Notes under the pieces: model-generated
The model's input: only the letters and a program-made list of their open reading frames with translations
The model's database searches: none
Told to the model about the DNA's origin: nothing
Made by a program: the position numbers and the translations under genes
Source of the DNA: Bacteroidaceae bacterium
Lineage (GTDB): Bacteria > Bacteroidota > Bacteroidia > Bacteroidales > Bacteroidaceae
Direction of reading: 5' to 3'
DNA: 32,461 nt
Assembly: GCA_017535725.1 (NCBI GenBank)
Contig: JAFXTO010000068.1
Span: 1-32,461, forward strand
Shown: piece after piece, positions 29 through 26,118 of the stretch
Numbering within the stretch: the first letter of the stretch is position 1
Layout: each line of letters begins with the position of its first letter

Positions 29-529
29 GTTGTGAATTGCTTGAAATAGTTCTCTTTGCGCCATCATAGACACCCTGTAGTCCGTTGCCAGGGTCTTTCG
101 AGCCGTTGTGAATTGCTTGAAATAGTTCTCTTTGCGCCATCATAGACACCATACTTGAGATTAATCATAATAGACTTTAAGTTGTGAATTGCTTGAAATA
201 GTTCTCTTTGCGCCATCATAGACACCGACAGAGCGGGAACCCAAACGGCAGACCCCGTTGTGAATTGCTTGAAATAGTTCTCTTTGCGCCATCATAGACA
301 CCTTCGCCGTGTTACTGATATGTTGCTCTCTCGTTGTGAATTGCTTGAAATAGTTCTCTTTGCGCCATCATAGACACCAGGCCGCGACATCGCCCGACGT
401 TCGCGTCCGTTGTGAATTGCTTGAAATAGTTCTCTTTGCGCCATCATAGACACCTCTTTCTTGAAATGCTAAATGCACCTGCTGTTGTGAATTGCTTGAA
501 ATAGTTCTCTTTGCGCCATCATAGACACC
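29..529 (+). CRISPR. Type II-C CRISPR array, 7 repeats and 6 spacers visible
   Basis: Seven identical 46-bp repeats start at 29, 105, 181, 257, 333, 409 and 484; each begins GTTGTGAATTGC and ends CATCATAGACACC. Spacers are 30, 30, 30, 30, 30 and 29 bp and all differ. Bases 1-28 fit a spacer cut by the window edge, so the array probably continues to the left. The repeat length and the GTTGTG start match type II-C arrays of Bacteroidetes. The crRNA strand is plus, because the tracrRNA anti-repeat at 6237-6255 is the reverse complement of repeat bases 2-21 (one base missing). The array is therefore transcribed toward, and convergent with, cas2. The last repeat at 484-529 is not degenerate. I cannot tell which end is the leader. 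Confidence 0.97.
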
Positions 530-600
530 TGAATATTAGCAAGATGGTAGAAGTCAAAGAGTTAGAGAACCAAACAGAATTTAAAAAAGGGTTATGATAA

Positions 601-656: not shown

Positions 657-1013
657 TTAGAAGAGTTCAAGTTGCTGTCCTGGAGCTTTGGGGGCTTCTT
701 CCTTTTTACCAAAGAAGAGTTGTATTTCAGCAAATTGCTTATCTGTTATTCCCAATATGCCAACTTTGCCCTTTTCGGGTAAGAACTTATGTACCCTTTT
801 CATGTGTACATCCATATTCTCACGGCTGGCACAATGTCGAATGTAAATGGAGAATTGGAACATCGTGAAGCCGTCACCTTGTAAGTTTTTGCGGAACTGT
901 GCAGCGGCTTTTCGTTCTTTCTTTGTGTCGGTAGGAAGGTCAAAGAACACAAGTATCCACATAACACGATATTGGCTGAAACGTGATGACTCATCGGGTA
1001 ACATAGATTTCAA
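657..1013 (-). CDS. cas2: CRISPR-associated endonuclease Cas2 (type II-C)
   Basis: The 118-residue protein is the small ferredoxin-fold partner of Cas1 in the spacer-integration complex. The hallmark first strand is visible as WILVFFDLPTDTKKERK, with the conserved Asp at residue 25, followed by the usual FQFSIYIRHCASREN strand region. The length is normal for type II Cas2. The start codon lies in an ATGA overlap with the cas1 stop (1010-1013), which indicates translational coupling. A shorter start at Met4 or Met18 is possible, but the chosen N-terminus resembles that of other Bacteroidetes Cas2 proteins. The C-terminal end (KAPGQQLELF) looks like a flexible tail. Cas2 closes the cas9-cas1-cas2 operon and its 3' end faces the array. 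Confidence 0.95.
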   Translation of the reverse strand: MKSMLPDESSRFSQYRVMWILVFFDLPTDTKKERKAAAQFRKNLQGDGFTMFQFSIYIRHCASRENMDVHMKRVHKFLPEKGKVGILGITDKQFAEIQLFFGKKEEAPKAPGQQLELF

Positions 1014-1945
1014 TTCATTTGTGGATAAATGATTCGTCGGAGTTCACCGCTGAAACATTTGTAGAGTGATGCTGTGGTCTGCGATGCCGCAATCATCAGG
1101 GGACTGCGTTTACCGTCGATGGTTACGTCAAGAACCGGAATACTTAGGAGCTCAGCTTTCAGTTCACGGGTCAGTTCAGAGTAATCGGGGAACTTGTGCA
1201 TCGTCTTGATAACCAACTCGTCCACGTATGGACGGTAAGGCTCCATAATATCATCGGCCAGACAATAGGCATTGTATCTGTTATGGTGGTGGATTCCCAA
1301 AGTGGGAAGCAGTCCACTGCTTACCAGCGCGCGAGCGATGACGCCTCGAAGGATGGCATAACCATAGTTCAGTAGGTTGTTAGGAGGTTCACCTTCTCGC
1401 CCACGAACGAAATCAGGAATTGAAGGAAAGAGGTTTTTCCAGTAGAACGCCGCAGCGCGTGCTTCGAGGTTGTCGGCGTCACCGCTTCGTACTTCTTCTG
1501 CCCATACCCGCATACATCTTGTTTCTGTTTCCGTGTAATGGCGCAGAATGACTTCCTGATTTGCTATCTTCTGTTTGATGGTCTGCTGCCAAAGTTGTTT
1601 ACGCAGTGGCAGGGATGCATCCAGTTGGTCACGGAAACGTTCGTTCTGCACGGTATTACCATAAAGCGGTAACATTAAGCCAACTGGCATACTTCGGCAG
1701 TCGCAGGTGATAACGGCAACATTGTTTTCCAACAAGGCTTCCATTGCTCCCGTCGTAATGGTAATGCGTCGATTGTCGAGCACCACAACCCCAATATCCT
1801 CTATCGGGATGGTGCGCTCGTTCATTTTCTTGAACTCAGGCGTCACGGTGTCATTCTTCTCTATATCTGGGATTTGGATGATAAGTTGCGCATTCCTAAG
1901 ACTAAGATAGGCGGGATTGGAGAAACAGAGTGTTTTCTTGATCAT
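1010..1945 (-). CDS. cas1: CRISPR-associated endonuclease Cas1 (type II-C)
   Basis: This is the integrase of the adaptation complex; it inserts new spacers as a heterocomplex with Cas2. The protein has 311 residues, a usual length for type II Cas1. It opens with MIKKTLCFSNPAYLSLRNAQL, the typical Bacteroidetes type II Cas1 start. The metal-binding residues expected for the family are present: Glu161 in NLEARAAAFYW, the His cluster 219-221 in GIHHHNRYNAYCLADD, and the acidic group 231-235 before EPYRP. It begins 20 bp after the cas9 stop and overlaps cas2 by 4 nt, so the three genes form one operon. There is no csn2 or cas4 beside it, which agrees with subtype II-C. Confidence 0.97.
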   Translation of the reverse strand: MIKKTLCFSNPAYLSLRNAQLIIQIPDIEKNDTVTPEFKKMNERTIPIEDIGVVVLDNRRITITTGAMEALLENNVAVITCDCRSMPVGLMLPLYGNTVQNERFRDQLDASLPLRKQLWQQTIKQKIANQEVILRHYTETETRCMRVWAEEVRSGDADNLEARAAAFYWKNLFPSIPDFVRGREGEPPNNLLNYGYAILRGVIARALVSSGLLPTLGIHHHNRYNAYCLADDIMEPYRPYVDELVIKTMHKFPDYSELTRELKAELLSIPVLDVTIDGKRSPLMIAASQTTASLYKCFSGELRRIIYPQMN

Positions 1946-1965: not shown

Positions 1966-4900
1966 TTAAGTTTCTTTGGCAGGGAGGATGTCTCCGAGAT
2001 GGTTGATGCGAACTTTGACAATGTCTTCGAGTGAAGAAAGTGTTCTTATTCGCTTGAATGTATAGTTCATTAGAACATTGTTATCTTCTACCGTCGTTTC
2101 TAAATGATGCCTAAAGAAATAGTCTCTACCGCTTTCTGTCTTTGACAATTTCTGCACCCTAAACAGATGACTACTAATCTCTGCCCTATTCCTTGAATCA
2201 AATAAATCTATTGCTTGTGGGTCGAAGCCGTGCTCAATATCAGGGAATACAAAGTATTCATTTTGCTTCATTGAGAAAAGGAATGTCCACCCCTCAGTGG
2301 ATTTGTAATCTGTATCTATGACAGGTATGCCCATCGATTTACGGATAGTAGCCTCCAAGAATGAGACTGCCACATCTTGAAGATTACCTTCTGCATCGCG
2401 ATATACAGCAATGTGATGAGTGCTGGCAGTCTGCACATAATCTACAAGTCTTCTCTGTCCTTCCTCGTCTGCGATTACTTGCCCGAAGTGGTCTTTTGCC
2501 TCATGAAGCGGAATAGCACTGAGCACACCGCGGATTCTCACTCGCTTGATTTGAATGCCCTTTTCTTTGTTCAACCAAATGGGATTCTCCTCCAGATTCG
2601 AGAAAGCCTTACGGGCATCACCTCCGAATGCAGCCAAGCGTTCTTCGAGGATACGACGGATACCTACATCTATCACTTTGTCCAGTTTGAGGTCTGGGGA
2701 GATAGGTTTGCGAATGGGGTAGTAGTCTTCGAAATAGACGAGCTTGACCTTGGGAGGCAGTTGCTCTGAATGTTGGTCGTTGAGCCATACTGGATTCTTC
2801 TCTAAAGCGTTCTTCCCCGTGAAAGCCTTCTTGGGATCATCATTAAATTGCGCCAGGCGAGCAAGTATCGCCTCACGATACATTTGTTTTGCAACAAGAC
2901 GGGCTCGTTCAGGAGTCATTTTGCCATCAACTTTCACCACTTCCGTGACATAGTGGCGCGTGTGTCCGTAGATGGTTTCGTTGTGTAGTTGTCCACGTGG
3001 AGTCAATTGCACTTTCTTACGGGTTCCTTCTTTGCCCTTGGTCTTGTTGACATTCTGTGTCATCACCTTGTTCTTAACTTTGATGGAAACGAAGATGTTC
3101 GCCAAATGTCGTTTTGCTTCTGCGCGGAACTGGTCCAGAGGCATGGGAGCCTTGAACCGGAGTTTGCCCCTGCCATCACGATAGAGAGCTTTCATTTCTA
3201 TTGCATAAATACTACTGCTCCTATCGCTGCGGGCATTGAGGTTATTGAGGTATTGTATGAAAGCAGGACGTGTGAATGCAATAGTGAGCGCATCCATCGC
3301 ATGGTGTCGGTGGTCATTGCGTTTCGTCCACTCTTTGATTCGCCGAATTACGCGTCCGTCTTTGTCCTGATATGTTTCGGTGAGTCCCAGCCGGTCGTAT
3401 TTGTCCCAATTGAGCTCTTGCATAACATCCACAAGTTGCCAGTCTTCACGAAGTCGGTCGGTGACGCTTCCGACGGTAGGCACCACCTGCATAACCATAT
3501 CTTCGAGGATTTCCCGAGCCTTGCGGGCAATGTACTGCGAATTGCGCAAATCGCGGTCTATGAAATCTTCAGGGATGTCAGCTTCTCGCATGAGGAGTTT
3601 GTCATGCTTTGCCTTGCTGATAACACCTTGTTTATATAATGCATCTATTTTAGCTTTGTACTCCTTGGCAGCCTCTTCGCCCCATTTGTCTATAACGTAA
3701 TCATAGGCAGTGGCATTACTCTTGTCGATATTGATGTCTCGTGCTTCTAACGTCTTATTGGAGAAGGAATCGTCAAAAAGACGTGCTTGCGGGATGATAT
3801 GCTCAATGTCGAAATCTTTTGAGAAGAGTCGGTCTTTAGGGATATAGGTGTTGGAATACAGTGTTTTGAAACCATTCTCCTTCAGTTCCATGTAGAGGCG
3901 GTAGCGCAGGATGTCGTTACGGCTGACATGAGGAATCCCAAATTCTGTCTCAAGAATTTTCCTATATTTCTCGTTCTGTGTATTCGCCTCGTTAATGGCC
4001 TGTGTCATTGCTTCTCGCTCCTTTGCATTCTTCTTCAGTTCGCGAGCCAGTTCAATACGGATTTCGTCAGGCTTTCCATAGGTATCGCAGATAGCGTTGA
4101 CGACATTAATCATCTGGTTCAGAATCTTCTCAACAACAGGATTGCGGAGAGCATTCCGAGGAAGGAGTTCCAGATGGTCAACATAAGTTCGCGTCTCCAG
4201 TTCTTCCTTGGTTCGCGAGCGCTCAGAATGGCGATAGCCTGCATACTGACAGGCAACGCTGTAGTCGTTGCCAGCTTTCAGGAACGGCAGAATCTTCCGC
4301 ATAGCTTTGGTGCTGAGACTTCCATAGTCTTCTTGGAAGGTGACATTTGCTAAGATCTGTGCATATTCGCGTTCGCAATGGCAGAGTTCCTGAACCTTCT
4401 GGATGAGCGATTCTGTTCCTGTCTTTGAATTGTCACCTTCATAAGAATAAAGGAGATGCCACAGGAGGTAGAGCGGTTGTTGGTCAAAGGCATGTCCTTC
4501 GAGGTCTGCATCGAAATGGAGAATAGCTTTGTTGAATCCAAGCGTATCGAAGACCTGACTGGTCACCGCCTCTATCTCGTTGGCTCGTAGTTTGCTAATG
4601 TCGTATTCATTGTGGCCTGAAAGGGTGATGATATCGAAGAACGCACGATAGAGGGCGTTCATGGTTCGATTACCCTCAACCTCTTTGTAATTAAGGTCAT
4701 ATTTCTTGGCGGCCTTACCAAACAGCAGGCTAAGGACATCGCGTTTCGAGAGTTTTTCCTTGTACATCAGTTCATGGGCAAGGAGTGCTTTCTCTTCGAG
4801 TTCGAGGAAACGTGTCTTCTCGGTAGAATAGAAAAGATTTTCACTCGCTTCTGGATACTCCACTTGCAGGTTGTTGAGAATTTGCCATATCTTGAATTCC

Positions 4901-6126
4901 TGGAACAAGGGTGAGGATTTCGGACAGACTTTGAGGCCAACGGTCTTGACACGTGTCTTTCCATCTTCGATGATTTCGACTTGTCGGTTCTCAAACGTAC
5001 ATATATCGAGCATTGCTTTTTTGCTCTTCAACGGACGCTGATAGAAAATGATGCAGTCGCGAACATTTTTCTTCAGCTCTGGAGTAAGTTCTGGATAGTA
5101 GCGGGCTTGCGTCTCCCATATCCGTTCAAATTCGTCCAAATAGTCCTGGCGGTAGAACGTCTTGTTCTTCAGACTATAATGAGGATCGGATTCTATCTTC
5201 TTAATGATATACTGTCCAATAGTTTGATGATTGAAGTACAGTTCCTTGGATCGGTCGCTGATTTCTCCGAGATAGCCACTACTGCCTGAAATAGCGCCAT
5301 TGATGTCAGCAATAACAAATGCCAGCTCTTCACGAGAGAGCTCTCTGTTGAGTGCCTCCATTCTCCAGCGATATTGTTGCAACCGACGGTCGGTTCCCTT
5401 GTTTTCGATGGTGTAAATGCCGTATTTGCCTAAGAAGATTTTTGTAGTGTTGTTTTTGGATTTCCCTTGTATTTGCCGATAGAAGTCCTCGGTAAGGATG
5501 TCGGAGTGGAATTGTTGTTGGTATTGCCAAATGGCATCGAACTCTGCAACGAGGTCAGAACGATAGAAGTCAGGAATGTATTTCTTTCCTGCGAGAAGTA
5601 GGGAATATACGTACAGCCCTGGTGTGAGGTTTTCATCCTGTAAGGTTTTGGCTATCTCCATTCCATCGATGAGACTACCCTCTTCGGTCGAATTGGCCTT
5701 GCGACTGCTTTTGTAGCCGCGTTTCTTGTTAATCATCAAAAGGATGCGGGCAAATTCGGACAAAGTAACTTTTTCTGTTACAGCCTTTGCGCGTGCTCGA
5801 AGAGTATCAAAAGTAGTTCTTGGGCCAACTTCTGTTAAAAAGGATTCATCCGTAATGATTCCTGCTTCTTTCAGAATCTTAATAAGATGACTACGGCGTA
5901 GCTTGTAACGTTGAAGATTACGTCGCATGCTCCTTTTGAGCGTGCGGTCTGCATTGGTGGTGATGCTCTTTCCTTTTTCGAAATTTGTTTGTTCATCAAC
6001 CGTCAAAGGCACAACTCTAACGCCCAGCCTGACAATAGAAGAACTTTCGTTTTCATTCTCGGCTTCATTAACCAAAGCCCAACCTATGCTTGTTGTTCCT
6101 AAATCTAATCCTAAGATACGTTTCAT
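1966..6126 (-). CDS. cas9: Type II-C CRISPR effector nuclease Cas9
   Basis: Cas9 is the RNA-guided double-strand DNA nuclease of the locus. This copy has 1386 residues, in the range of the large Bacteroidetes II-C enzymes. All catalytic parts are present: RuvC-I (ILGLDLGTTSIGWAL, Asp8); the Arg-rich bridge helix at about residues 60-80; RuvC-II (IRIELARELKK, Glu692); HNH (DIEHIIPQ, His776); and RuvC-III (HRHHAMDALTIAF, His942 and Asp945). The enzyme should therefore cut. I chose the ATG at 6124-6126 because RuvC-I starts directly there. The frame stays open 36 codons further upstream, but that stretch is non-conserved, contains the cas9 promoter box and runs into the tracrRNA promoter. cas1 and cas2 follow in the same operon. 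The PAM cannot be read from this sequence. Confidence 0.98.
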   Translation of the reverse strand: MKRILGLDLGTTSIGWALVNEAENENESSSIVRLGVRVVPLTVDEQTNFEKGKSITTNADRTLKRSMRRNLQRYKLRRSHLIKILKEAGIITDESFLTEVGPRTTFDTLRARAKAVTEKVTLSEFARILLMINKKRGYKSSRKANSTEEGSLIDGMEIAKTLQDENLTPGLYVYSLLLAGKKYIPDFYRSDLVAEFDAIWQYQQQFHSDILTEDFYRQIQGKSKNNTTKIFLGKYGIYTIENKGTDRRLQQYRWRMEALNRELSREELAFVIADINGAISGSSGYLGEISDRSKELYFNHQTIGQYIIKKIESDPHYSLKNKTFYRQDYLDEFERIWETQARYYPELTPELKKNVRDCIIFYQRPLKSKKAMLDICTFENRQVEIIEDGKTRVKTVGLKVCPKSSPLFQEFKIWQILNNLQVEYPEASENLFYSTEKTRFLELEEKALLAHELMYKEKLSKRDVLSLLFGKAAKKYDLNYKEVEGNRTMNALYRAFFDIITLSGHNEYDISKLRANEIEAVTSQVFDTLGFNKAILHFDADLEGHAFDQQPLYLLWHLLYSYEGDNSKTGTESLIQKVQELCHCEREYAQILANVTFQEDYGSLSTKAMRKILPFLKAGNDYSVACQYAGYRHSERSRTKEELETRTYVDHLELLPRNALRNPVVEKILNQMINVVNAICDTYGKPDEIRIELARELKKNAKEREAMTQAINEANTQNEKYRKILETEFGIPHVSRNDILRYRLYMELKENGFKTLYSNTYIPKDRLFSKDFDIEHIIPQARLFDDSFSNKTLEARDINIDKSNATAYDYVIDKWGEEAAKEYKAKIDALYKQGVISKAKHDKLLMREADIPEDFIDRDLRNSQYIARKAREILEDMVMQVVPTVGSVTDRLREDWQLVDVMQELNWDKYDRLGLTETYQDKDGRVIRRIKEWTKRNDHRHHAMDALTIAFTRPAFIQYLNNLNARSDRSSSIYAIEMKALYRDGRGKLRFKAPMPLDQFRAEAKRHLANIFVSIKVKNKVMTQNVNKTKGKEGTRKKVQLTPRGQLHNETIYGHTRHYVTEVVKVDGKMTPERARLVAKQMYREAILARLAQFNDDPKKAFTGKNALEKNPVWLNDQHSEQLPPKVKLVYFEDYYPIRKPISPDLKLDKVIDVGIRRILEERLAAFGGDARKAFSNLEENPIWLNKEKGIQIKRVRIRGVLSAIPLHEAKDHFGQVIADEEGQRRLVDYVQTASTHHIAVYRDAEGNLQDVAVSFLEATIRKSMGIPVIDTDYKSTEGWTFLFSMKQNEYFVFPDIEHGFDPQAIDLFDSRNRAEISSHLFRVQKLSKTESGRDYFFRHHLETTVEDNNVLMNYTFKRIRTLSSLEDIVKVRINHLGDILPAKET

Positions 6127-6151
6127 AAGGCAAATTCTGTAATTTTTGCTG

Positions 6152-6159
6152 CAAAAATA
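6152..6159 (-). promoter_or_regulatory. Probable cas9 operon -7 box
   Basis: The minus strand reads TATTTTTG, an exact match to the Bacteroidetes -7 consensus TAnnTTTG. It would start transcription about 19 nt before the cas9 ATG. No clear TTTG is visible at the -33 position, so the promoter may be weak or regulated. Confidence 0.5.
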
Positions 6160-6199
6160 GGCAAAAGAATCTGTTTCTAAGAAGAAAAAGCGGAAAAAG

Positions 6200-6231
6200 T
6201 TTGCGTAGATGGCCAAAAGGCAGTACTTTTG
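6200..6231 (+). promoter_or_regulatory. tracrRNA promoter (TTTG-N20-TACTTTTG)
   Basis: The -33 box TTTG at 6200-6203 and the -7 box TACTTTTG at 6224-6231 are separated by 20 bp, matching the Bacteroidetes sigma-ABfr promoter pattern exactly. The predicted start, about 6-8 nt after the -7 box, falls at 6237-6239, which is where complementarity to the CRISPR repeat begins. Confidence 0.8.
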
Positions 6232-6236
6232 CAATG

Positions 6237-6316
6237 CTATTTCAGCAATTCACAATAAGGATTATTCCGTTGTGAAAACATTCAGGTTGCCCTCGTCCTC
6301 TAACGGGGGCATTTTT
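6237..6316 (+). ncRNA. tracrRNA of the type II-C system
   Basis: This RNA of about 80 nt base-pairs with the crRNA repeat and is held by Cas9. The anti-repeat at 6237-6255 (CTATTTCAGCAATTCACAA) is the reverse complement of the first part of the CRISPR repeat with a single missing base, giving a duplex of about 19 bp with one bulge; the next base, T6256, can wobble-pair with repeat G1. It is followed by ACAATAAGG, the same motif that follows the anti-repeat in Neisseria II-C tracrRNA, then a small GGA/TCC hairpin (6259-6268) and a terminal hairpin with a T run. A consensus promoter lies just upstream. The gene is divergent from cas9 and on the same strand as the crRNAs. The ends are inferred from promoter and terminator, not from transcript data. 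Confidence 0.9.
6288..6316 (+). terminator. Intrinsic terminator of tracrRNA
   Basis: TGCCCTCG at 6288-6295 pairs with CGGGGGCA at 6304-6311 (8 bp, one G-T wobble) across an 8-nt loop and is followed at once by five T. In II-C systems this hairpin also forms the 3' end of the mature tracrRNA. Confidence 0.85.
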
Positions 6317-6319
6317 GCT

Positions 6320-6327
6320 TACCTTTG
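6320..6327 (+). promoter_or_regulatory. Probable -7 box of the M6 protease gene
   Basis: TACCTTTG matches TAnnTTTG and lies 39 bp before the protease ATG, only three bases after the T run of the tracrRNA terminator. The expected -33 position falls in the terminator hairpin and shows no TTTG. Confidence 0.45.
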
Positions 6328-6366
6328 CCACGTCATTGAAGATGAATCGCCAAATAAAGCAGACAA

Positions 6367-7956
6367 ATGAATAAGATTTTGATTTTAGCAGTAGCTGCGA
6401 TGATGACTGCTTTGAATGTGAAGGGGCAGTCGAAGGAAGACTTATCGGCAGATGAAGGAGTGATACAACTGCGTGGATGTAGGAGGGGAACACCGAACCC
6501 TCGGTTTGCTCCCCGCCGAGCGCAATTGCTCACCAACGACGAGCCTACCGACATCGGCAACCGCTGCCAGCTGGTGGTGCTGGCATCGTTTCAAGACCGC
6601 GACTTCAAAGAGGACCGCGATGCCACGCTGACGAAATGGGATAAGATCTTCAATGCGGAGAACTATACGGAGGACAATTATGTGGGCTCTGTTCACGACT
6701 ATTTCATGGCCCAAAGCTATGGACAATTCAATCTGCAGTTCGACCTCCAGTTTGTTGAATTGCCCGGCGAAAGCGTGAAATATTGCAGCACCAGGGATAA
6801 TGATGATAATGCGCAATACATGGTCGATGATATTGTAGATGTGTTGCAGGAGCGGGACATTGACTGGAGCCTATACGACTGGGACGGCAACGGATTTGTT
6901 GACCAACTGCTCATCATCTTTGCCGGAGAGGGGATGAATGCCACCAATGAAAGAAACACCATCTGGCCCCACCAATGGTGGCTGAGCCAGCATAAGAACT
7001 TAGTGAGCGACGACCCAGATGATTTCCGAAGCTATCGCACCATCACCAATGGCGACAAAACGTATTACATCGACTGCTATTGCTGTGTGCAGGAACATGT
7101 GAATTATAATGGTACACAGACGCCCTTTGGCACCATCTGTCACGAATACACTCACTGTTTCGGTTTTCCCGATTTCTATTATGAAAACGGTACTTTAGTA
7201 CTGAGTACATGGGACATCATGGATTACGGCTGCTATAATGACAGCGGCTTCCGTCCCTGCAGCTATTCGGCACACGAACGCATGCTGATGGGATGGCTTA
7301 CACCGGTCGAGCTCACCAGCCCAGCCTCAATTACTGATATGCCAGCCCTCTGCGATGAACCACGGGCTTATCTCATCCGTAACGATGGAGCAGAGAACGA
7401 ATACTACATCATTGAGAACCGGCAGCAACGAGGTTGGGATGAGCGTCTGCCTGGCTGTGGCATCCTCGTCTTCCACGTCGATTACGACAGGGAGGTATGG
7501 ACTGGGACACAACTAAGCGTTAACAGTGACTTGCTAAAGCGTTATCACATTTTCCCGGCCAACAACAATGCCAGAATCTACCAAGCAAAAAAATGGGCTT
7601 ACCCGTATGTCCTGCAGGATTCAATGGGCAATGACTCCATAGCCAACAACCAGCTGACGAACACATCGGCACCAGCTTCCACGCTGAACAATGTGAACGT
7701 AGATGGCGAGAAACTGATGTCGAAACCCATCACGCAGATGGCTGTCAATGCCAACGGAATGGCATCCTTTGTTTTTAACGGAGGACAAGGCACGTCCATT
7801 CATCATGAATCATTGAATGGGACAGAAGGGCAAGGCAAACAAGGCGGCAGCAATCCTGATGATGGCTGGTATCTGCTTGACGGACGCCGACTTAATGGCA
7901 AACCTGCCACCCACGGACTATATATCCATCAAGGAAAGAAAGTCTCCTGGCCTTAA
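6367..7956 (+). CDS. Secreted M6-family zinc metalloprotease
   Basis: The 529-residue protein has a signal peptide (MNKILILAVAAMMTALNVKGQ) and then a peptidase M6-like domain related to immune inhibitor A. The zinc motif is complete: HEYTHCFGFPD, with His259, Glu260, His263 and Asp269. Further M6 features are the DWDGNGFVDQLLIIFAGEG stretch before it and the STWDIMDYG segment after it (Met-turn region). The protein ends with a short domain (WYLLDGRRLNGKP...GLYIHQGKKV), the kind of C-terminal tail seen on many secreted Prevotella proteins; whether it serves type IX secretion is inference. It probably degrades extracellular proteins. It stands alone between the tracrRNA and the convergent ald gene and has its own promoter box, so a functional link to CRISPR is unlikely. 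Confidence 0.9.
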   Translation: MNKILILAVAAMMTALNVKGQSKEDLSADEGVIQLRGCRRGTPNPRFAPRRAQLLTNDEPTDIGNRCQLVVLASFQDRDFKEDRDATLTKWDKIFNAENYTEDNYVGSVHDYFMAQSYGQFNLQFDLQFVELPGESVKYCSTRDNDDNAQYMVDDIVDVLQERDIDWSLYDWDGNGFVDQLLIIFAGEGMNATNERNTIWPHQWWLSQHKNLVSDDPDDFRSYRTITNGDKTYYIDCYCCVQEHVNYNGTQTPFGTICHEYTHCFGFPDFYYENGTLVLSTWDIMDYGCYNDSGFRPCSYSAHERMLMGWLTPVELTSPASITDMPALCDEPRAYLIRNDGAENEYYIIENRQQRGWDERLPGCGILVFHVDYDREVWTGTQLSVNSDLLKRYHIFPANNNARIYQAKKWAYPYVLQDSMGNDSIANNQLTNTSAPASTLNNVNVDGEKLMSKPITQMAVNANGMASFVFNGGQGTSIHHESLNGTEGQGKQGGSNPDDGWYLLDGRRLNGKPATHGLYIHQGKKVSWP

Positions 7957-12434: not shown

Positions 12435-12506
12435 ATGGGGTGGATGGGTCTAATGGGACTAATGGGGTTTATGGGACTAATGGGGTAAATGGGAGTTATG
12501 GGGCAA
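12435..12506 (+). repeat. Tandem array of a 9-mer, 8 units (ATGGGRNTA)
   Basis: Eight uninterrupted 9-base units, each starting ATGGG, run from 12435 to 12506 with consensus about ATGGGrcTA. The array fills the 71-bp gap between the A2M gene and surE and covers the A2M stop codon (12496-12498) and its last codons. The plus strand is G-rich with regularly spaced GGG/GGGG runs. Confidence 0.85.
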
Positions 12507-15500
12507 TTACTATCGTTTCTGCCTTGGTCTGTCCACCATACTCAGGGGCATAGAGGCAGCGGATGGTGGTGAGGCCAGAGGTGTAGGTGCCGGCGCGGTC
12601 GATGAAGGAGGTTTCTTCGAGGACGTAGGTGCCTTTGGGCAGATGGTCGAAGAAGTAATCGGTATGTGCATCGCGTATGGCGCGGTAGTAGCCGAGGCCG
12701 CCTTGGTAGCGGTAGCCCGACAGTTGTTCGGCTGGCTCTGCACACGCTGCCCTCGGGGCACGCAAGTTGACATATTCATAGTCGCGGTCGGCAGTGATGA
12801 TGTAGCGGGTGGTGAAGCGGTCACCTACCTTCGGCGTGGTCGTGATTACTTCGCGGCGCACACTCAGTCCTGTGGCAGAGCTGCTGGCATCGGTCATGGG
12901 TGTGAGGAAAGTGGCAAAAACGGCACCCCACGCCTCGCTGTCGGTAAGGCGTTCCACGGTGATGCTCTTGGGGGCCTCGCCATCAGCGAACTGTTTCTTG
13001 ATGAATCCCAGTCCTGCCACCGCCTTGTCTGCATCCAGACGGTTTATATCGACCTGTCGTTTGGCGTAGTTGAGCTTGATGCTGTCGGGCTCGGAGGCAT
13101 TCAACTCTTCCGTGTTTCCCGTCAACAGGGCATAGATGGCATCTGCCGTACAGATATTGGATTCCCACATCTGCGTGCGCTTCTGCTGCAACAGCCAGCG
13201 GCGCAGGCCCTTCAGCAGGGATTTGTTGCCAGGCTCCATCACCTGCACAGCCTCCATGGCTGCTACATGATGGATAATCTTATGGCTGGTGGGGTTGAAA
13301 CTGCCACCGGCATAGTCGAAGAACGTTCCGTGGTCAGCTGTCGTCGTGGTGTGTTCAATGAGCGACTCATAGTATTGCCTTGCTTCGGCGTTGCGCTTGG
13401 CACCCTTCATCACCACAGCTGCGATGGCGCGTTCCCAGTTGTCCATAGTGGCCACACTGCCTTTCATGTGGTCGAGTAGGTATTTCACGTCGGCCTGTTG
13501 GGCTTTGTTGAGTGATACCCCTGCGTGCTGGGTGGCGTAGATGTACTCCAGATACATCATCGATGCGGTGTTGATGGTGCTTCCTTCCTTCTCTGCCTCC
13601 TTCATCTCCTGAACATACTTGGCCGTCCGTCCAGCTATGAAACGGATGTTTTCCTGCAACAGATGGTTGACAATCCGCTTTACGTCCGAGGGCAGAGTCT
13701 GGAAATCATTGGTCATCACCTTCAGTCGGGCGAGTTCAGTGGCGATGACTCGCGTCATCATTTCGCTGCAGGACATGCCGGGGAACCAGGAATATCCGCC
13801 TTCATCGCCCAAGCGTTGTTCCAGACGTTCTGCGATGGAGGTCAAGACGTTCTCCTGCCGGCTAATGTTGAAGAGCTGGATGAGTCGTTGCTTGCGGTCG
13901 GCTTCGTTCTCCGCTTCGCGTAGCCAAGGCGTCTCATCAAGAATCAGTTGCTTGAGTTCCTCGTCTTCTGCCAACTTACTGGCCAGAGAAAGTTTGCCCT
14001 GTGCCTGTTCACGCTGCCATATTTCCACGAGGGTCTTCAGGCGTGGAGTGCTATTGGCGATATAGGTTGCGAGGGCCTGTGCCTGCAGAGCAGTGCCGAG
14101 TGAGATGATGTCATCGTATTGTGGCTCAATCAACGACGGCAGGGCTTGCAGGACATGCCAGATGGGATGTGCGGTGTATTCCACCGTGAGCCGACGGTTG
14201 GTGGCCGTGGAGCTGTCGTGGTTGAAGAGCGATGTGAGATCCGTCGTAAAGGTGCCAAGGCTATCGACACGAATCTCCACACTCTCTGTGATGTACGTTT
14301 TGTTGGGCAGAATGGGGAGATAGTGCTGTTCACCATCGCTGAACGACTTGCTGTTGGCCGTCAGGCGCACGGCCACTACGGGCTGGTCACCACTGGGCGT
14401 ATAGTCGAAGGTCAGCAGACACTCGCCATTGGCCTTGGCGCTGAAAGCCTGCTTCTGGCTGATGATGACACGATCCGTCTCCGGGTCGAAGATTTCCAAC
14501 AGGGCGTTACCATTGATTTCGGTCTCTGTGAGGTTCTGAATGGTTGCTCGCACGCTTGCCTTATCCTCTGCTCTCAGGAAGCGAGGCAGGAACAGGCGTG
14601 CCATCATCTCCTTACGAGCCACGGCCTCGGCCTCGAACGTGGTGTTCATCAGGTCCTTGGTATGTGCCAATCCGAGTAGCTTCCATGTGGTGAGACTTTC
14701 GGGCAACGTAAACTTTATGGCCACCTCACCTTTCGCATTGGTCTGTAGGCGCGGCAGGAAGGCGGCGGTTTCGTTGAAATTGGTGCGCAGGGTTTGAGGT
14801 GCCGTGGCCGCGGTCTTCGCTTCTTCGGAGTCTGCGGCAGCGGCAGCGTCCATGCTTTCCTCCTCTGCTTCCGCTACCATGCCATTAGCCTTAGCCAACA
14901 TCAACCTGGGCATGGCAGCTCTGGTGGGTTCCATAGCCAATTCATACACCGCACCTACCTCACGTGGGGAACGCCGTCTTCCGTACCCGAATCCTAAATC
15001 ATCGTAGTAGTCCAGGTTGAAGATATCGAATTCCAGATTGTCTGCATCATACGACTTCATAGAGAATGAGAAGTCACAAGAAGCATAATAAGAGGTAAAA
15101 TAGTTCTGATAGTTCCAAGGCAATTCCGTGATGCGGTACACCCTGCGCATGAACAAATTCCAAGCATGAGGCGTGAGTGCATCGAGCGAAGCGTCGTAGA
15201 GTGTCACCATCGCTTGTGCCGATGCGGGAGTCCCATCAGGATTCCTGAGCTGCAACGTCCAGGTCTCCGTATCGCCGGGATGCAAGCGATCGCGGAAGGT
15301 CTTCCATTCCCACTTCAAGGTGCGGTCAGGACTAACAAGCCTGAGCGTCTGTTCGTCCTTAAAGACCTTGCCGCCCTTGACGAAGACATAATGGAAGGTG
15401 GCACCATCGCCAAAATGCGACTCGTAAGGTATCTCGATGACTCGCAGCTCGTCGGACAAGGGGATGAGACGTTCCTCTATCACCTGCTTCCCTGCAACGA

Positions 15501-18174
15501 TGGTGTAGTAGAAAGCAACGTCCGTGAAACTGGTGCCCACCTGTATGCGTGCAGGCTTCCCTGGTCCGAAGGTTGCATCAGGGCAATAGAGCCATTCGGG
15601 TGTCACCTTGGGCAGCTTGGTGTCCTCCATGCCGAAGGTAAGGAAGTAGGCTTTCGTGCTGTCGCGATGTTCCCCCGACGTGGCTTCCACGTAGAGCTCG
15701 TATTGTCCTGCTTCGAGGGAGCGCACGGCTTCCATATCAAATTCAAGATGTTTCTCCTTAGATACTATAGTACCGCTGCTGACCGCCTCATCGCTGGTGC
15801 GCTTCTTCTCGCTAGCGGGATAGATGGTCCAAGTCAGCGTGCCGTCGGTGGGCTGGCCAGTAGAAGACAGCAGTTCGACGGTGATGGGTTGGAGATGGTC
15901 ACGTTCCTGCTGCTCGGGCACATTCATAACGATGCGCAGGGGTTTCTTACTGAGAGGCACAGTCGTTTGGGCTTCGTGTGTCTCACCTGCCACGCTGAGT
16001 ACTGCCACGTTCAGTTCCAGATACAATCCTCCCCACAGCTCATCTTCCGAGAGTTGTGTCAGGGGCACCCGGACGCTGAAGCTACCCGTCTCGTCAGTGG
16101 AAATGGTATCGATGGGCATACGTTCTGAATCCGTTCTGCTGCCCCACCACCAAGGATAGGTAAACTGATAGGTTCCCGTGACGCGCCCTTCGCGGATGGG
16201 AACGCCGTTGTAGCCCATGGCCTTACCCGTGAGGGTGATGCTATCTGCGGGCCATTGCATGTCGGGAGCCTTATCCATCTTCACCTCAAAGGTGGGACGC
16301 TTGTACTCCTCTACACGGAATGATACGGAACCGGAACCATAGCTACCTATATTGCTCACCACACGATAGACGCCAGGCAATCCTCCTTGTGGTAGCTGAA
16401 AGTCAGCGCTGAGCTTACCCATCTCGTCGGTCTGCACCTTCTGTGTCCCTACTTCCTTGCCATTGGCATCTCGCAGGACAAGCACTACCTGTTCGTGTGC
16501 CGACACGACAGCATCCCAGTGTTCTTGTTGGAAGAGGATGCCGCCAACATGCACGTTTTGACCAGGACGATAGATGGCACGGTCTGTATAGAGTCGTATA
16601 GCCAGAAAAGGCTGTTCCGGCTCCGAGAACGACGTATTGGAGAAATAGGAATCCTCGGGTTCCAAGTAGCAGTCATCGCCCAAGCTCACCTTGCGGTAGA
16701 GGCGCGTTTCCTTTTCCATGTTCACGGTTTCGTTGTCCAAGGGTGCCCGGCCCTCGCTATCCGTCGTGATGGTAGCGATGTGCTTCTTCGTTTCGTCATG
16801 GATATAGTAGTACTCGACCTCGGCACCTTCTATAGGCTGTCCGCTCTCTGCGTCCACGACCACGGTACGCTGTTGTCCGAGCCCGTTTTGATAGAGGGGC
16901 TGTAGGCGTGTACAGATAAAGGTGGCATACTCCTGAATAGAGGTCTGGACCAAATCGTTCTCCGAGGCTTCACCCGTTATGACAATCGCGTAGTTGCCCT
17001 GTTCGGGTGCCTTCCAGGAAATGGTGTCGTTGCGATCTTCCCAAGGCTGTCCTGTGGGCACGTCGAAGACAAAAGTCTGAACGCTGGTTCCGGCCTTGCG
17101 GATTTCCTGTATTCGGCGCTCCGTAGTTCCTGAAAGATTTCTTTTACGGAAACTCTTGGGCATCTGGAACACCTCGAACGTCAACCGCTTAGCATTCGCG
17201 GAATAGACCGTCCACTCATATTCCTTACCGGGATAATAGATAGACCGCCCGCGCCACGTCATCTTAGGCCTCAGCATAGCGTTGAGACGGTTTTTCACCT
17301 TACCAATACCTGCATACTTGGGATAGCGGGCGATGCACTCCCGTGCCAAGGCCACCTGATCTTCTCTTTGCAGTTCACCAATCAGTCCTAAATAGGCTTC
17401 CACACACAGCGGCAGGTCGCCGTATTCTTGGATGAGCTGACGATAGAGGTCGGCATCGCTATGCTTGGTCTGTAGTTCTATCCAGTCCAAGGACATCAGC
17501 AAAGTAGCCTCTCGATTACCGATTCGCTTGTATTCGGCGATGATATCCCATGCCAAATCGGCGAGTGTCTTTTGAGTGCCCTTCCAGATGTTCCTGTTCT
17601 GCTCCTTGGCACGGTTCCAGAGGATATGCAGGAGGTCGTGCTTGAAGTATGCCGACTGCTCATGCTGTTCGATGAACGGCAACCAGTCCTTGCTATGTGC
17701 CTTTGCCAATAGCGGAAAGTCCTTCATGGAGAGACGCCAGTTCTCGGCGGCGGCACTATCATATTGCTCCCTTGTCCATTCTTTCATCTCCTCGGACGTC
17801 ATTTCCAAATCACTGGCCTGTGAACGCCCCCTGTTCATCTCGTAGATTTCAGCCAAGAGCGAAGCATAGACGGCACGTGCTTCCGGGCGCTTCTCCTCAG
17901 CACGCAGGGCCTCTAATTCCTGAATATCGGTGAAGAAGCTGTCGGGAGCCCACTCCTGATGGAGGGCGGCCATCTTCAGGCGGGCGCTCAGAGCCTGACC
18001 AATATGGTTCGCACGTGAAGCTTTCTGAAGAATCTTCTCGGCAGTCTCGTAAGCCGACTTGGGCTTGCCGTCATCCTCGAACGCTTCCACCTGCTTCCAT
18101 AACTTATCATAGCTCTCGGCAAAGAGCAGGAAAGGAAAGAATGCCATAGCGATAGAAAGAATGTAGGATTTCAT
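12496..18174 (-). CDS. Alpha-2-macroglobulin family protein, thioester motif absent
   Basis: The 1892-residue exported protein has a signal peptide (MKSYILSIAMAFFPFLLFA). It continues with a helical, TPR-like region to about residue 290, a chain of macroglobulin domains (for example RLYTDRAIYRPGQNVHVGG near 530) and the conserved A2M segment LPESLTTWKLLGLAHTKDL. A helical TED-like domain and a C-terminal MG domain (APEYGGQTKAETIVIAP at the end) follow. Bacterial A2M proteins trap proteases at the envelope. The TED normally starts with a CxEQ thioester after the WHVLQALPSLIE segment; here residues 1349-1362 read EPQYDDIISLGTAL with no Cys or EQ, so covalent trapping is not expected. An Ala/Glu-rich linker (EEESMDAAAAADSEEAKTAATAPQ) precedes the A2M segment. 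It lies 28 bp after pepD; its stop codon lies inside a nonamer array. Confidence 0.93.
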   Translation of the reverse strand: MKSYILSIAMAFFPFLLFAESYDKLWKQVEAFEDDGKPKSAYETAEKILQKASRANHIGQALSARLKMAALHQEWAPDSFFTDIQELEALRAEEKRPEARAVYASLLAEIYEMNRGRSQASDLEMTSEEMKEWTREQYDSAAAENWRLSMKDFPLLAKAHSKDWLPFIEQHEQSAYFKHDLLHILWNRAKEQNRNIWKGTQKTLADLAWDIIAEYKRIGNREATLLMSLDWIELQTKHSDADLYRQLIQEYGDLPLCVEAYLGLIGELQREDQVALARECIARYPKYAGIGKVKNRLNAMLRPKMTWRGRSIYYPGKEYEWTVYSANAKRLTFEVFQMPKSFRKRNLSGTTERRIQEIRKAGTSVQTFVFDVPTGQPWEDRNDTISWKAPEQGNYAIVITGEASENDLVQTSIQEYATFICTRLQPLYQNGLGQQRTVVVDAESGQPIEGAEVEYYYIHDETKKHIATITTDSEGRAPLDNETVNMEKETRLYRKVSLGDDCYLEPEDSYFSNTSFSEPEQPFLAIRLYTDRAIYRPGQNVHVGGILFQQEHWDAVVSAHEQVVLVLRDANGKEVGTQKVQTDEMGKLSADFQLPQGGLPGVYRVVSNIGSYGSGSVSFRVEEYKRPTFEVKMDKAPDMQWPADSITLTGKAMGYNGVPIREGRVTGTYQFTYPWWWGSRTDSERMPIDTISTDETGSFSVRVPLTQLSEDELWGGLYLELNVAVLSVAGETHEAQTTVPLSKKPLRIVMNVPEQQERDHLQPITVELLSSTGQPTDGTLTWTIYPASEKKRTSDEAVSSGTIVSKEKHLEFDMEAVRSLEAGQYELYVEATSGEHRDSTKAYFLTFGMEDTKLPKVTPEWLYCPDATFGPGKPARIQVGTSFTDVAFYYTIVAGKQVIEERLIPLSDELRVIEIPYESHFGDGATFHYVFVKGGKVFKDEQTLRLVSPDRTLKWEWKTFRDRLHPGDTETWTLQLRNPDGTPASAQAMVTLYDASLDALTPHAWNLFMRRVYRITELPWNYQNYFTSYYASCDFSFSMKSYDADNLEFDIFNLDYYDDLGFGYGRRRSPREVGAVYELAMEPTRAAMPRLMLAKANGMVAEAEEESMDAAAAADSEEAKTAATAPQTLRTNFNETAAFLPRLQTNAKGEVAIKFTLPESLTTWKLLGLAHTKDLMNTTFEAEAVARKEMMARLFLPRFLRAEDKASVRATIQNLTETEINGNALLEIFDPETDRVIISQKQAFSAKANGECLLTFDYTPSGDQPVVAVRLTANSKSFSDGEQHYLPILPNKTYITESVEIRVDSLGTFTTDLTSLFNHDSSTATNRRLTVEYTAHPIWHVLQALPSLIEPQYDDIISLGTALQAQALATYIANSTPRLKTLVEIWQREQAQGKLSLASKLAEDEELKQLILDETPWLREAENEADRKQRLIQLFNISRQENVLTSIAERLEQRLGDEGGYSWFPGMSCSEMMTRVIATELARLKVMTNDFQTLPSDVKRIVNHLLQENIRFIAGRTAKYVQEMKEAEKEGSTINTASMMYLEYIYATQHAGVSLNKAQQADVKYLLDHMKGSVATMDNWERAIAAVVMKGAKRNAEARQYYESLIEHTTTTADHGTFFDYAGGSFNPTSHKIIHHVAAMEAVQVMEPGNKSLLKGLRRWLLQQKRTQMWESNICTADAIYALLTGNTEELNASEPDSIKLNYAKRQVDINRLDADKAVAGLGFIKKQFADGEAPKSITVERLTDSEAWGAVFATFLTPMTDASSSATGLSVRREVITTTPKVGDRFTTRYIITADRDYEYVNLRAPRAACAEPAEQLSGYRYQGGLGYYRAIRDAHTDYFFDHLPKGTYVLEETSFIDRAGTYTSGLTTIRCLYAPEYGGQTKAETIVIAP

Positions 18175-23490: not shown

Positions 23491-23522
23491 TTTGGCGTTT
23501 AAAAATAAATGCACTACTTTTG
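23491..23522 (+). promoter_or_regulatory. murF-pdxB promoter (TTTG-N20-TACTTTTG)
   Basis: TTTG at 23491-23494 and TACTTTTG at 23515-23522 are 20 bp apart and match the Bacteroidetes consensus exactly. The start would be near 23528, giving a leader of about 65 nt before the murF ATG. This supports the ATG at 23593 over the upstream ATG at 23509, which lies before the -7 box. Confidence 0.75.
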
Positions 23523-26086: not shown

Positions 26087-26118
26087 TTTGGCAAATTGAA
26101 AAAAATGCCTTACCTTTG
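26087..26118 (+). promoter_or_regulatory. acpP operon promoter (TTTG-N20-TACCTTTG)
   Basis: TTTG at 26087-26090 and TACCTTTG at 26111-26118, 20 bp apart, match the Bacteroidetes consensus exactly. The start would be near 26125, about 45 nt before the acpP ATG. It is the only good promoter seen before the acpP-fabF-rnc-GH3-lipoprotein run. Confidence 0.8.

Follow-up and report, generated by a model that had tools for sequence, protein, structure and literature searches.

Promoters inside the repeats have been reported for the type II-C CRISPR-Cas9 system of Neisseria meningitidis, whose repeats are shorter and whose promoter boxes differ from those considered here. The promoter consensus of Bacteroidota places TTTG near -33 and TAnnTTTG near -7, according to the accessible text of PMC7366714. 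For the same phylum, the available part of PMC9067536 (RNA Biol 2022) describes a candidate tracrRNA, CRISPRCas_38, which lies in type II-C loci in 599 of 599 cases and in Bacteroidetes in 578 of 599, usually no more than 100 bases upstream of cas9. Fp2Cas9 of Flavobacterium psychrophilum cleaves in vitro with a 99-nt tracrRNA and crRNA, nucleotides 25-64 of the 99 being the essential region and the crRNA bulge being essential as well (PMC12609912, accessible sections). Dual RNA is needed for its cleavage in the assays that the accessible sections of PMC12609912 and PMC10309648 describe; the latter paper states that the start of the tracrRNA was not revealed. In Prevotella intermedia, an anti-repeat (anti-DR-2) is found upstream of cas9 in a locus with 47-bp repeats, and its promoter was not strongly predictable by the authors, as stated in the available text of PMC5608340. 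A TTG has been named as a putative repeat promoter in Flavobacterium (PMC8092290 and PMC10309648, available sections), and for the Riemerella repeat the accessible part of PMC5006608 reports that no potential promoter was found. In the partly accessible literature that we searched, we found no account of the start of a Bacteroidota tracrRNA of this kind, and a search with the letters of the conserved core, whose coverage left aside most subscription journals and figures, returned no match.

Here, we analysed a stretch of 32,461 nucleotides (the window), which is an entire contig of a Bacteroidales assembly that is 76% complete. Beside cas9 it carries a compact element that, judged from its letters and those of its relatives, is almost certainly a tracrRNA gene, belonging to a type II-C CRISPR-Cas9 locus in which the cas frames are open. 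Like CRISPRCas_38, the element is tracrRNA-like, belongs to type II-C and sits near the cas9 start, and by the published description of that model, as far as it is accessible, it very probably belongs to it; it differs in its distance, with 109 bases between the cas9 ATG and G6236 compared with a typical distance of up to 100. With Fp2Cas9 it has the Bacteroidota type II-C setting in common, while its predicted length of about 80 nt differs from the 99 nt of the Fp2Cas9 tracrRNA, the two being compared by description and not by letters. With anti-DR-2 it shares the position of the anti-repeat upstream of cas9.

Materials and methods

A class A unit was defined as CACAATAAGG, 4-16 nt and CCG[N]TGTG. 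The 120 Cas9 loci comprised 80 from a species-genome collection (the best 80 of 517), 39 from a phylum sample and the window, which gives close relatives more weight in the set. The 39 loci were chosen by Cas9 similarity from a phylum sample of 394 genomes, 66 of which had a match. The 102 class A units of these loci, together with those of 15 further loci and less 3 duplicates, gave 115 distinct units, 81 of them with a repeat; the 115 include the oddities L265, L269 and L270, and the variants G811 and G956 came in by chance and not by even sampling.

Results

From left to right, the window contains a CRISPR array near the contig start, cas2, cas1 and cas9 on the minus strand, the tracrRNA-like unit on the plus strand and a gene for an M6-family metalloprotease. 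The array (29-530, plus strand) has seven 46-nt repeats that are near identical to each other, and it may extend past the contig end; the 5' half of the repeat occurs in seven places only, all in the array, across the 76% complete genome. Three genes adjoin each other between the array and the unit: cas2 (657-1013, minus strand; 118 aa, with a TTG start as listed; TIGR01573), a cas1 of the type II kind (1010-1945, minus strand; 311 aa; TIGR03639) and cas9 (1966-6126, minus strand; 1386 aa; TIGR01865 with 508 bits, RuvC_III and HNH_4). All three frames are open, and the unit is divergent from them. With cas9, cas1, cas2 and an array, and with neither csn2 nor cas4 in the part within view (the array end past the contig lies outside it), the locus has the composition of type II-C. 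The solved structure nearest to the window Cas9 is that of CbCas9 (8iyq, as well as 8wmh, 8wmm, 8wmn and 8wr4; E 2.8e-71). Elsewhere, the minus strand at 12496-18174 encodes a bacterial alpha-2-macroglobulin-like protein of 1892 aa.

The cas9 ATG at 6126 yields MKRILGLDLGTTSIGW, which we take to be the usual beginning of a Cas9 N terminus; an alternative start of the frame is the TTG at 6234. By direct reading, TATTTTTG at 6152-6159 on the minus strand is a possible -7 box of cas9, and with this box a single bidirectional promoter region may serve both cas9 and the tracrRNA; no TTTG lies at the fixed 20-nt spacing from it. The 136-base stretch of the tracrRNA gene has a single match in the whole genome (76% complete).

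Positions 6200-6231 of the plus strand match exactly the Bacteroidota-type pattern TTTG-N20-TACTTTTG, with TTTG at 6200-6203, a 20-nt spacer and TACTTTTG at 6224-6231, and fit the phylum consensus. The window has 3 exact matches to the general form, TTTG-N20-TAnnTTTG, whereas 100 shuffles gave an expectation of 0.02; this bears out the promoter that an earlier sequence-only reading had placed at 6200-6231. The other two exact matches lie at 23491-23522 and 26087-26118, both on the plus strand. A sigma-70 scan of 5900-6600 found no promoter, as expected for Bacteroidota. Since the -7 box is centred at -7, the predicted +1 falls near 6235 (±2), and from this position of the box we infer a transcription start at the anti-repeat.

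The anti-repeat extends over 6236-6256 (plus strand) and pairs with the 5' half of its cognate repeat, leaving one repeat T unpaired. Its Watson-Crick core, CTATTTCA-GCAATTCACAA at 6237-6255, is complementary to repeat bases 2-21; the unpaired T is position 13 or 14, the two being equivalent, and G6236 and T6256 add wobble pairs at the ends. The alignment score is 33, compared with 20 for the next best site outside the array. An ungapped search of the window with up to 3 mismatches returned the seven repeats as its only matches, and no second anti-repeat was found in the window, where a better one would have spoken against the proposal. In a co-fold, repeat and tracrRNA anneal into one duplex in which a single repeat T stays unpaired (-45.8 versus -27.5 for the free RNA), so that both the anti-repeat at 6237-6255 and the bulge that had been expected from one base missing relative to the repeat were recovered. 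At 6252-6260 lies ACAATAAGG, presumably the junction that is also present in the type II-C tracrRNA of Neisseria (N. meningitidis).

The body of the RNA consists of a mini hairpin, GGA-TTAT-TCC (6259-6268, plus strand), whose third pair is altered on both sides in 3 of the 115 distinct units, and a conserved tail, GTTGTGAAAACATT (6269-6282, plus strand), which contains GTTGTGA. These seven tail letters equal the first 7 bases of the repeat and can fold onto 6250-6256. An intrinsic terminator follows at 6288-6316 (plus strand), with a 9-pair stem at 6288-6311 that includes one G-U and with TTTTT at 6312-6316, as the hairpin and T-run of the earlier proposal had it. A terminator scan of 5900-6600 gave 3 nested sites, all in this hairpin, versus 1.0 in shuffles, and on its own the RNA folds more stably than its shuffled versions (z -4.9). 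By consensus, the unit thus has a promoter and a terminator of its own, and the elements of the compact unit of about 80 nt are present base for base. A search of the window against Rfam gave no family at the gathering cut-off; membership in RF02348 (tracrRNA) is not shown, because its match reaches 16.6 bits (E 2.7) against a cut-off of 70.

Is this unit common among Bacteroidota Cas9 loci? We found 102 class A units in 101 of the 120 loci. They are present in 79 of the 81 loci formed by the best 80 of 517 relatives and the window, whose own unit fits the definition beside cas9, and are missing from L025 and L051; among the phylum-sample loci, 22 of 39 have one. This close association with cas9 and, in the window, the TIGR01865, TIGR03639 and TIGR01573 frames agree with the tracrRNA gene that had been proposed. 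Of the 79 units, 78 are located upstream of the cas9 start at a distance of no more than 300 nt (the unit of L041 is 1,037 nt away); 74 of these 78 diverge from cas9, and 4 are on the cas9 strand. When the tail hexamer was left free, the core matched in 92 of 374 Bacteroidales genomes, and the 95 matches divide into 92 with GTTGTG, 1 with ATTGTG and 2 that look like chance; across the distinct units, GTTGTG is found in 112 of 115. In the phylum sample, class A accompanies Cas9 frames of about 1,250, 1,400 and 1,500-1,600 aa. Loci with 36-nt repeats have mostly smaller Cas9s and, where a tracrRNA is visible, no GTTGTG tail, with the exceptions of L153 and L154, which combine 36-nt repeats with a class A tail, and of L167, a 1,539-aa frame without the tail.

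The promoter recurs in the same manner. TAnnTTTG is found within 80 nt upstream of 92 of the 115 units and in the narrow expected span of 90, as compared with a shuffle mean of 1.7 (maximum 7). The rule is a tendency, because 23 units are without an exact -7 box and, of the 92 that have one, 43 show TTTG where -33 is expected. Measured from the end of the -7 box to the first paired base, the distance is 1-5 nt in 55 of the 67 units that allow the measurement; the remaining 12 range from -7 to 8, and the value for the window is 4. Exactly one repeat base, and none in the anti-repeat, is unpaired in 53 of 81 units, while 10 have no gap and 18 show other patterns. Given the spacing in 55 of 67 and the bulge in 53 of 81, a compact start and a single bulge are general traits of the RNA family, and the comparison with related loci that the sequence-only reading had suggested makes both features of the window the family norm.

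Some stretches or genomes hold more than one tracrRNA-like unit (L269 in G032:C16, L153 in G188, G649 and G691, where one of the pair is at a contig end), and in L089 (G032:C16) the stretch from anti-repeat to hairpin contains TAAGGATTAA as a short tandem duplication. Orphan units were seen in L265 (about 4100-4270, G025:C1) and L267 (about 15750-15910, minus strand, G033:C49). Both have the promoter box, a shorter tail (GTTGTGAACATT) and a different terminator hairpin; neither has a Cas9-sized frame among the listed nearby ORFs or an array, and their predicted repeats, when sought in their own incomplete genomes, were found in the unit alone.

The repeats carry a similar box. TAnnTTTG occurs inside 55 of 76 distinct class A repeats, against 3.5 on average and at most 13 in shuffles; in 53 of 76 it lies at repeat positions 23-27, and on the opposite strand there is none. 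Of the 76 repeats, 75 have TTG close to the 5' end, a count that may be inflated by 1-2 since repeats truncated at base one were completed with a leading G. From their letters, the two elements together are likely a promoter built into the repeat. The window repeat has no exact TAnnTTTG and shows TCTCTTTG at that place; the repeats of the close relatives L001, L002 and L272 are also without the exact box, with CGTCTTTG, CATCTTTG and AATCTTTG, respectively, and that of L007 carries TATCTTTG.

Discussion

We propose that RNA polymerase with the primary sigma factor of the phylum would start at about 6235, giving a 5' end that is already the anti-repeat and would need little or no trimming, and would halt at the hairpin and T-run to leave an RNA of about 80 nt. 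Its 5' arm would pair with the first 21-22 repeat bases of the crRNA, and a single base of the repeat would bulge out. The scaffold bound by Cas9, an assignment that is supported, would be made up of the mini hairpin and the conserved GUUGUGAAAACAUU tail, perhaps together with the terminator hairpin, and the RNA would in this way serve guide maturation and immunity.

The same strand holds the M6 metalloprotease gene (6367) 50 nt downstream, and the unit could therefore be read as its 5' leader or attenuator; we set this reading aside as extremely improbable, since 78 of 81 loci have the unit next to cas9 and, in the window, it carries the anti-repeat of the adjacent array. It is also quite unlikely that the RNA is made in a decaying locus, with an array that is poorly transcribed after losing the -7 box of its repeat. 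The degenerate box of the window repeat, at the place occupied by TAnnTTTG in 55 of 76 class A repeats, and the likewise degenerate boxes of L001, L002 and L272 would fit such a decay, but the locus has open frames for cas9, cas1 and cas2, its seven repeats hardly differ from each other and L002 has a 30-copy array in spite of its box; a promoter may also lie past the contig end, or an imperfect box may be weakly used.

A further idea adds to the tracrRNA reading and does not compete with it. The free tracrRNA could be self-occluded by its tail GUUGUGAA folding onto the anti-repeat UUCACAAU, so that the crRNA would have to gain entry through the open 5' arm, displacing this mimic of the repeat, which would gate Cas9 loading. 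The minimum-energy fold does contain the tail/anti-repeat hairpin, at about -10 kcal/mol, the duplex with crRNA is stronger than the self-fold by the co-fold values given above, and the tail hexamer is near invariant. Moreover, the final 8 bases of the anti-repeat have a mean unpaired value of 0.20, compared with 0.63 when the tails are shuffled (first 60 of the 115 units), and six tracrRNAs of the other class range over 0.47-0.90. However, some shuffled tails also close the arm (minimum 0.17), the energies are those of naked RNA, and the invariance of the tail is equally compatible with direct Cas9 contact. Covariation between tail and anti-repeat was rejected, being absent among the 115 distinct units, few of which differ on the anti-repeat side of the pairing; L058 and L233 break one pair on the tail side, with the repeat of L233 unchanged, and the variable eighth pair keeps its A in the tail whatever the anti-repeat carries (T in 68, A in 42, C in 3 and G in 2). 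We regard self-occlusion as rather unlikely. The broader scheme is unlikely too: class A tracrRNAs would be toehold-gated, with a built-in copy of the repeat's first 7 bases that keeps the anti-repeat closed until it is invaded by crRNA at the open 5' arm. In this scheme, the promoter grammar (TTG / TAnnTTTG) common to the tracrRNA gene and most long repeats would place the start of both RNAs at, or close to, the 5' ends with which they work, so that neither has to be cut first.

In summary, the tracrRNA gene and its locus are ordinary members of a described kind, and the result narrows a gap by annotation and introduces no new kind of system. Three features were not seen in the literature searched, as far as it is accessible: a start by the promoter of the phylum, a -7 box in the repeat and an invariant GTTGTGA tail equal to the repeat start. 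The window offers a base-level, testable map of how a tracrRNA may start in this phylum, for which the literature found gives no tracrRNA promoter, and the near-invariant tail and the -7 box of most repeats are simple targets for start-site mapping.
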